A stretch of DNA of 64,000 bases from positions 310,001-374,000 of the forward strand of contig NZ_JAMLJJ010000002.1 in assembly GCF_023736155.1 (NCBI RefSeq). The letters run 5' to 3'. Source of the DNA: Larsenimonas salina. Lineage in GTDB: Bacteria > Pseudomonadota > Gammaproteobacteria > Pseudomonadales > Halomonadaceae. Every line of letters begins with the position of its first letter. The first letter of the stretch is position 1. Shown here piece by piece: positions 18,869 to 19,963 of this stretch. The notes below the pieces were generated by a model. The model did not search any database, was not told the origin of the DNA, and saw only the letters and a program-made list of their open reading frames with translations. The position numbers and the translations under genes were made by a program.

Positions 18869-19963
18869 TCAGTCCCAAGTCAGGGCGCCACCGGTCTGGT
18901 ATTCGGTCACGCGGGTTTCGAAGAAGTTTTTCTCCTTCGGAAGATCGATGATTTCCGACATCCACGGGAAGGGGTTGTCCACTTCCTCGAACAGCGGCGT
19001 AAGCCCGATCTGTTCGGCGCGGCGGTTGGTGATGAAGTGCATGTACTGCTCGCACAGATCGGCGTTCAGGCCAAGAATGCCGCGGGGCATGGTTTCGCGG
19101 CCGTAGGCCACTTCCAGCTCGCAGGCGTTCTTGAGCATGCCGCGCACTTCTTCCTGGAACTCCTCGGTCCACAGGTGCGGGTTTTCGATCTTGATCTGGT
19201 TGATGCAGTCAATACCGAAGTTCATGTGGATCGACTCGTCGCGCAGGATGTACTGGTACTGCTCGGCGATGCCGACCATCTTGTTGCGACGGCCCAGGGC
19301 CAGAATCTGGGCGAACCCGGTGTAGAACCACATGCCTTCGAAAATGACGTAGAAGGCGATCAGGTCGCGCAGAAACGCCTGGTCACGTTCCGGGGTGCCG
19401 GTCTGGAATTCGTTGTTTTCCAGATTCTGGGTGTACTGAAGCGCCCAGGCATCCTTTTCGGTGATCGACGGCACTTCGCGGTACATGTTGAACAGCTCGC
19501 CTTCATCAAGGCCGAGCGAGGTGCAGATGTACTGGAACGTGTGCGTGTGAATCGCTTCCTCGAACGCCTGGCGCAGCAGGTACTGGCGGCATTCGGGGTT
19601 GGTGATGTTGCGATAGATCGCGAGCACGATGTTGTTGGCGACCAGCGACTCGGCGGTGGCGAAGAAGCCCAGGTTGCGCTTGAGCATGCGGACTTCGTCT
19701 TCGGTCAGGCCCTGGGGGCTGTTGACCGGCGCGCGCCAGGTAGCGATGTCGCCCTGCATCGAGACTTCGGTGGGCATCCAATGGTTGTTGCAGCCATTGA
19801 GGTATTTTTCCCACGCCCAGGTGTACTTCAGCGGCAGCAGCTGGTTCACGTCGCTGCGGCCGTTGATCATGCTTTTTTCGCTGGCGTCGATGCGCCCGGC
19901 GCCGGCCTGGATTTCACCGAGACCGGACGTGTCGATTTGATCGTCCACTGTGGTTGCTTGCAT
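18869..19963 (-). CDS. nrdB: Ribonucleotide reductase small subunit (R2), class Ic-like
   Basis: A 364-residue R2 protein (family R2, ferritin-like fold). The six metal ligands are recognisable: Glu105 (in ATAESLVANN), Glu136 and His139 (FEEAIHTH), a Glu in EGMWFYTGF, and Glu/His in RDESIHMNFG. The residue four after His139, where E. coli R2 has the radical Tyr122, is Phe143 (IHTHTFQYIC), and the first ligand is Glu where E. coli has Asp84. Both are hallmarks of class Ic (Chlamydia-type Mn/Fe) R2. The start at 19963 has AAAGGA eight bases upstream; the ATG at 19972 has it too close. It is co-directional with nrdA, 84 bp upstream, and has the normal C-terminal interaction tail (FFETRVTEYQTGG). 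Confidence 0.95.
   Translation of the reverse strand: MQATTVDDQIDTSGLGEIQAGAGRIDASEKSMINGRSDVNQLLPLKYTWAWEKYLNGCNNHWMPTEVSMQGDIATWRAPVNSPQGLTEDEVRMLKRNLGFFATAESLVANNIVLAIYRNITNPECRQYLLRQAFEEAIHTHTFQYICTSLGLDEGELFNMYREVPSITEKDAWALQYTQNLENNEFQTGTPERDQAFLRDLIAFYVIFEGMWFYTGFAQILALGRRNKMVGIAEQYQYILRDESIHMNFGIDCINQIKIENPHLWTEEFQEEVRGMLKNACELEVAYGRETMPRGILGLNADLCEQYMHFITNRRAEQIGLTPLFEEVDNPFPWMSEIIDLPKEKNFFETRVTEYQTGGALTWD

Follow-up and report, generated by a model that had tools for sequence, protein, structure and literature searches.

The window analysed here, a 64,000-nucleotide stretch of the genome of the halomonad Larsenimonas salina, carries nrdA and nrdB, the genes for the large subunit (NrdA, R1) and the radical-generating subunit (NrdB, R2) of a class I ribonucleotide reductase (RNR). 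We conclude that these genes very probably encode a hybrid enzyme, in which a native halomonad NrdA is paired with an actinobacterial-type NrdB that has class Ic residues, was swapped in place and is predicted to use manganese and iron. The evidence comes from the residues of NrdB, the tree placements of the two subunits, the gene neighbourhood, a switch of affinity within NrdA and the fact that no second RNR was found, all of which were observed directly.

The nrdB gene (18869..19963, minus strand) encodes a protein of 364 amino acids, identified from its translation, from profile and structure matches and from trees; the open reading frame (ORF) translates as given beforehand and contains FEEAIHTHTFQYIC. 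Since AAAGGA lies 8 bases upstream of the ATG at 19963, this start is favoured over the other in-frame ATG at 19972. The protein is an R2 by Pfam PF00268 (E 5e-89) and scores 651 bits with NCBIfam NF005550 (cut-off 309). In an alignment with Escherichia coli K-12 NrdB and a Chlamydia trachomatis-type R2 (P0122), Glu105 (codon GAG, 19649..19651) occupies the place of the first metal ligand, which is Asp84 in E. coli and Glu89 in C. trachomatis, and Phe143 (codon TTC, 19535..19537) that of the radical tyrosine, Tyr122 in E. coli and Phe127 in C. trachomatis; the two combinations are referred to as Glu/Phe and Asp/Tyr. Codons and alignment thereby bear out the original prediction, which was made from the letters of this stretch and had named both replacements, their likeness to the chlamydial protein and a step of 31 residues from first to second ligand (105 to 136) equal to that of E. 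coli. The remaining five metal ligands are kept (Glu136, His139, Glu209, Glu243 and His246), and Trp62, Tyr238 and the C-terminal Tyr355 (codon 18899..18901; E. coli Tyr356) are conserved as C. trachomatis Trp51, Tyr222 and Tyr338, positions that we take to form the radical relay. The position of E. coli Trp111 is Gln132 in NrdB, a residue that Chlamydia and the Asp/Tyr rows shown also have. The check that the prediction had named against itself, a radical site at Tyr145, was also run: a tyrosine is found here both in Chlamydia (Tyr129) and in the Asp/Tyr halomonad row shown, which rules out Tyr145 as a displaced radical tyrosine.

Residues, relay positions and a clade shared with the chlamydial R2 thus support, at the level of sequence tests, the assignment of NrdB to the class Ic type that had been proposed. 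NrdB lacks the radical tyrosine and the aspartate first ligand of a class Ia R2, and it has Phe143 at the position where class Id R2s retain a tyrosine (PMC9936198). Class Ib R2s are described with nrdI within the operon (PMC3019208); no nrdI-like ORF was seen by eye beside nrdAB, the search for nrdI never having been genome-wide, and the NCBIfam class Ib models score far below cut-off for NrdB. The models for R2lox proteins are likewise far below their cut-offs, and Tyr355 is present and nrdA adjacent.

A Mn/Fe cofactor and a need for manganese are a reasonable inference from this assignment. By homology with the chlamydial enzyme, manganese in site 1 and iron in site 2 would react with O2 or H2O2 to give a Mn(IV)/Fe(III) centre, which would store the oxidising equivalent in place of a tyrosyl radical. 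The hole would then be transferred from Trp62/Tyr238 through Tyr355 to Tyr895-Tyr894 of NrdA and on to the active-site cysteine, these relay residues being presumed ones. The chlamydial class Ic chemistry behind this scheme is described in PMC8463856, PMC4118035 and PMC9936198. That a protein with the Glu/Phe signature instead works in the cell with mixed metals or a high-valent di-iron centre seems unlikely, for while metal content is unreadable from sequence and mismetallation of the class Ic scaffold has been noted, the chlamydial enzyme is maximally active with manganese and iron (PMC8463856 for both). In addition, a strong Nramp (MntH-like) importer (E < 1e-60) occurs in all 12 halomonad genomes with a Glu/Phe NrdB, as against 25 of the 75 with an R2 match of 65-68%; this argument is weak because the 12 genomes are one clade, and the pattern is consistent with, not evidence for, manganese use. 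The further claim of the original prediction that the enzyme should resist radical scavengers was too strong, since hydroxyurea reduces the Mn(IV)Fe(III) cofactor and intercepts the pathway tyrosyl radical in a class Ic enzyme (PMC8463856). By analogy with the H2O2 resistance of the chlamydial R2 (PMC8633580), resistance to H2O2 is better supported.

The two replacements go together, since 345 of 424 aligned R2 sequences are Glu/Phe, 79 are Asp/Tyr and none is mixed, the sequences being related, partly picked by similarity and including duplicates of one genome, and hence not 424 independent cases. A third position, that of Thr215 (codon 19319..19321), separates the groups completely, with T, S, A or G in the 345 Glu/Phe rows and C or V in 68 of the 79 Asp/Tyr rows, the other 11, distant ones, having been omitted from this comparison. 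Residue labels were rechecked for the 82 rows used, and the 77 in the alignment and the five omitted agree with their group. Within Halomonadaceae, 150 of 151 genomes have an R2 match: 12, with Larsenimonas salina counted, have a Glu/Phe NrdB that is 87-100% identical, 75 have a match of 65-68% (Asp/Tyr in 18 of the 18 loci read) and the other 64 have more distant R2s, a fragment or none. The Glu/Phe genomes fall in three genus codes, whose named records are Larsenimonas, Kushneria and Phytohalomonas, and the NrdB of Larsenimonas suaedae DSM 22428 is identical to the one discussed here. Because no mixed sequence occurs among the 424 and 12 genomes of the family are Glu/Phe, the signature is neither chance nor sequencing error. 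In other families of the order all 25 loci read (L033-L057), the best-scoring among 193 genomes with a match, are Asp/Tyr. Of the 120 matches of the NrdB search, 119 are Glu/Phe, the exception being P0044 (530 amino acids), which is Asp/Tyr.

The two subunits have different relatives, a possibility absent from the original prediction. NrdB is 79-84% identical to R2s of Actinomycetota and 65-67% to the Asp/Tyr NrdBs of other Halomonadaceae, and beyond its own three genera the closest named NrdBs are actinobacterial, with Micrococcales bacterium 31B (84%) first and Nocardiopsis, Saccharopolyspora, Amycolatopsis and others following at about 79-83%. NrdA, in turn, is 70-78% identical to those of Asp/Tyr halomonads and 60-67% to those of actinobacteria, and the named ones among its best 120 matches are mostly halomonads and Marinospirillum, with one labelled Virgibacillus and no actinobacterial name. 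Trees of both subunits were built from the same 76 rows, taken from the same loci, after removal of L078 and L211 (large NrdA insert, probably inteins) and L202 (partial), and of L186, L194 and L240 by thinning (L240 is the same genome as L059). In the NrdB tree the 10 Glu/Phe halomonad rows join three Actinomycetota rows (support 98/84) and are split from 42 gammaproteobacterial rows at 100/100, with four of the nine other Glu/Phe gammaproteobacterial rows on their side; in the NrdA tree the same 10 rows lie inside Halomonadaceae (SH-aLRT 99), inside the order and inside the gammaproteobacterial rows. Approximately unbiased (AU) tests, which were additionally run without L208 (very long branch), reject the grouping of NrdB with the halomonad NrdBs once the trait columns are taken out (log-likelihood difference 206, p 1.5e-5), as well as a clade of NrdA with the actinobacterial NrdAs (difference 128, p 8.5e-5). 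Conserved positions that separate Asp/Tyr halomonads from Actinomycetota point the same way: 43 of 46 such NrdB sites are actinobacterial-like, two halomonad-like and one neither, whereas 38 of 44 NrdA sites are halomonad-like, four actinobacterial-like and two neither (these diagnostic sites, like the tail alignment and the breakpoint analysis below, were computed without L078, L211, L202, L208 and L186). GC content at third codon positions is 0.83 in nrdB and 0.82 in nrdA, and nrdB is thus not foreign-looking by base composition, as expected if the transfer is old.

Whether Glu/Phe R2s arose once or several times is a separate matter, and neither is claimed here. The first NrdB tree, with the trait columns kept, gathers all Glu/Phe rows in one clade (SH-aLRT 97). 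When columns 105, 143 and 215 are dropped, gammaproteobacteria of the two families f131 and f207 separate and one Glu/Phe clade appears in 0% of 200 bootstrap trees, and a Glu/Phe clade of 65 rows that includes the chlamydial class Ic R2 is found at 99/94, but the AU test does not reject a single Glu/Phe clade (p 0.47). The bootstrap trees, and the wider 113-row tree mentioned below, were made without the trait columns and left out L170, L179, L180 and P0044.

The change of affinity falls inside nrdA itself. The native part, residues 1-898 with the ATP-cone region and the catalytic barrel, is at 20237..22930 and the 3' end, residues 899-960 and the stop codon, at 20048..20236, both on the minus strand, and the latter carries the actinobacterial signature EKSTLKGTDGKL and likely came with nrdB. 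All 38 halomonad-like NrdA sites are at or before residue 898, with one exception in that stretch, at 651, and after 898 three sites are actinobacterial-like, two neither and none halomonad-like. The cumulative similarity peaks at NrdA 898-901, just after the conserved stretch GLKTTYYLR, in all 12 Glu/Phe halomonad rows, which come from Larsenimonas, Kushneria and Phytohalomonas (L059 and L240 being one genome), and four of five Asp/Tyr control rows peak at or near the end of NrdB. Furthermore, every one of the 11 Glu/Phe halomonad loci has the tail EKSTLKGTDGKL, as do 20 of 21 Actinomycetota, the exception being L078, whose NrdA was read only in part. The tail is absent from all 14 Asp/Tyr halomonads and all 25 other Asp/Tyr gammaproteobacteria; one of 10 other Glu/Phe gammaproteobacteria (L202) carries it, and so do seven of the best 120 NrdA matches, of which those with names are Larsenimonas, Kushneria and Phytohalomonas. 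It is two residues longer than the tail of Asp/Tyr halomonads, and some other gammaproteobacteria have a loop of equal length with other letters. The codons of Tyr894-Tyr895, which we take to be E. coli NrdA Tyr730-Tyr731, are just on the native side of the junction (20246..20251, minus strand). The spacer between the genes (19964..20047, minus strand) is shorter than in Asp/Tyr halomonads, the distance from the nrdA stop to the start of the R2 core being 216-284 bases in Glu/Phe halomonads, 319-473 in Asp/Tyr halomonads and 107-344 in Actinomycetota (computed without L078). This spacer contains a strong hairpin, possibly a control of subunit ratio; 13 of 13 spacer regions folded, with no shuffled control, form stems of unrelated sequence.

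The surroundings of the operon are native. A response regulator and a sensor kinase neighbour it at 23526..25886 (plus strand), and the order nrdB-nrdA-response regulator-kinase-LysR is common to Asp/Tyr halomonads (L184, L185, L187 and L188, for example), while in the seven actinobacterial loci inspected none of these neighbours was found next to nrdAB. The genome (3.19 Mb, 99.9% complete) has one PF00268 gene and one gene of PF02867, presumably a family that includes class II RNR, and no NrdD was found in it, so NrdAB seems to be the sole RNR and to supply all deoxynucleotides. At E up to 1 the genome yielded no remnant of an Asp/Tyr nrdB and none of a second nrdA, and a search of the window with the NrdR-box consensus, allowing up to three mismatches, gave no match.

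The simplest explanation is that foreign DNA, by horizontal transfer and recombination, was substituted in situ for nrdB and roughly the final 62 codons of nrdA. A crossover in the GLKTTYYLR stretch would have introduced the tail of NrdA together with the spacer and nrdB in the common ancestor of Larsenimonas, Kushneria and Phytohalomonas, and the old Asp/Tyr nrdB would have been lost in that event. NrdA would have kept its native active-site barrel and Tyr894-Tyr895 pair, and a class Ia enzyme would thereby have been turned into a class Ic hybrid. Donor and host types hardly differ in the C-terminal tail of R2, which we take to be the chief contact with NrdA, and this would explain why such a swap could work. 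Alternatively, the whole nrdAB operon may have come from an actinobacterium and its nrdA may later have been overwritten by the native gene up to about residue 898. This would leave the same end product and also account for the foreign-looking last 62 codons, but it requires two steps, the operon stands in its native neighbourhood and the genome holds no trace of a second nrdA, which makes it rather improbable; transfer of the operon as a plain, single event is ruled out for NrdA as a whole by the AU test. Lastly, vertical descent of a halomonad R2 whose Asp84 and Tyr122 became Glu and Phe by mutation would suit the native NrdA and neighbourhood but is scarcely credible, given the 43 of 46 actinobacterial-like NrdB sites and the AU rejection of a halomonad grouping with the trait columns removed (p 1.5e-5), which rules out an origin by point mutation.

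The swap of nrdB may have parallels. The NrdBs of f207 and f131 form one Glu/Phe clade (100/96, and 97/95 without trait columns), and one clade is rejected for their NrdAs (p 1.7e-4); five Glu/Phe rows of these families peak near the end of NrdB, with no junction inside NrdA. In a third gammaproteobacterial family, f204, three rows have a NrdA junction at 892-895. It is thus somewhat probable, in our judgement, that class I RNR can exchange its radical generator as a module, that one recombination, by replacing R2 and the redox tail of R1, can take an enzyme from iron/tyrosyl to manganese/iron with the native core unchanged, and that such swaps recur. RNR subclasses are defined by R2 chemistry, and co-evolution of R1 and R2 might be expected because the radical crosses their interface in each turnover. 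If the swap is as we describe, an R1 core of class Ia descent has apparently been working with a class Ic-type R2 from a time before the three genera split, and metal choice and radical storage would be exchangeable in one step. With a defined junction and many related unswapped genomes, its effect on metal need, oxidant tolerance and subunit fit can be tested.

Several observations weigh against this account or parts of it. The AU test does not reject the monophyly of actinobacterial NrdBs (p 0.129, 75-row set), though in the wider tree of 113 rows the halomonad NrdB is nested within Actinomycetota (99/95 and 95/92), and its placement inside rather than beside them is tentative. The best named relative outside the three genera, Micrococcales bacterium 31B, is at 84% identity. 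One Asp/Tyr gammaproteobacterial control (L218) peaks inside NrdA at 845 and two actinobacterial control rows do so at 216 and 226, and the similarity peak is therefore no proof by itself. The exact junction moreover rests on few sites, since the foreign tail has a length of just 62 residues, some of them of low complexity. Downstream of nrdB, Glu/Phe and Asp/Tyr halomonads have no convincing gene in common that would mark where the replaced segment ends on that side. Finally, the NrdA test for f204 falls short of 0.05 (p 0.083), so the recurrence of R2 swaps rests on f207 and f131.

Some further observations concern RNR genes elsewhere. Halomonadaceae R2s are of at least three kinds (Glu/Phe, Asp/Tyr and distant types of 23-30% identity) in a patchy pattern, and RNR replacement seems to be frequent in the family. 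Two genomes of the Kushneria-type genus code, those of L235 (G089) and L236 (G108), have no Glu/Phe nrdB match and instead carry an R2 of about 30% identity whose radical site reads HNESY, together with an adjacent probable large subunit; L235 also has a flavodoxin-like gene that may be nrdI. These R2s point to a further RNR replacement within that genus. Two halomonads whose nrdB is of native type, L184:5617-5733 (G041) and L233:640-819 (G014), have a second copy of the 3' end of this gene at a distance of 3.7 and 17 kb. Of the islands so bracketed, one holds a ThsB-like TIR protein, a caspase-domain protein and an HD (dGTPase-like) protein, while a resolvase and a phage-type integrase are found in the other; the 3' end of nrdB resembles a site at which mobile or defence islands integrate. 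Extra length or large inserts occur in the NrdAs of L078, L211, P0333 and P0345 (named Chromohalobacter), and those of P0333 and P0345 contain PF14528, which we take to be an intein endonuclease domain.

Among known systems, the R2 of Saccharopolyspora erythraea (PDB 6y2n; PMC7467353) is the nearest solved structure by sequence (E 1e-200); S. erythraea R2s are about 82% identical to NrdB and share the FEEA-HTHTFQYIC stretch exactly, but the NrdA of Saccharopolyspora is actinobacterial in the two loci compared (65%), whereas that of Larsenimonas is native halomonad. The C. trachomatis class Ic R2 (PDB 1syy, 4d8f, 4m1h, 4m1i; E 1e-129) is alike in ligands, phenylalanine and relay residues and belongs to the same 65-row Glu/Phe clade, although it is more distant than that of S. 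erythraea, and chlamydial NrdA has three ATP-cones (PMC9669993), unlike the Larsenimonas NrdA with two ATP-cone stretches by Pfam. The class Ia NrdAB of other Halomonadaceae matches Larsenimonas in NrdA type and neighbourhood in the loci compared, and differs in its NrdB, which is Asp/Tyr in 14 of 14 loci read and 65-67% identical. The haloarchaeal class Ic RNRs (PMC3019208, PMC3824934) are similar in the replacement of the radical tyrosine by phenylalanine, in horizontal gain, in their case from bacteria, and in saline hosts; Larsenimonas, by comparison, probably gained nrdB and a nrdA tail within a native operon. No report of an R2-only replacement was found in the open-access literature searched, in the parts available, with subscription papers mostly outside it, and a prior description is possible. 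Chlamydia, haloarchaea and others are known to have class Ic R2s (PMC3824934, PMC3019208, PMC4118035, PMC9669993), and the Glu/Phe signature alone makes NrdB a new member of this long-known class; the mismatch in origin between its two subunits is less expected.
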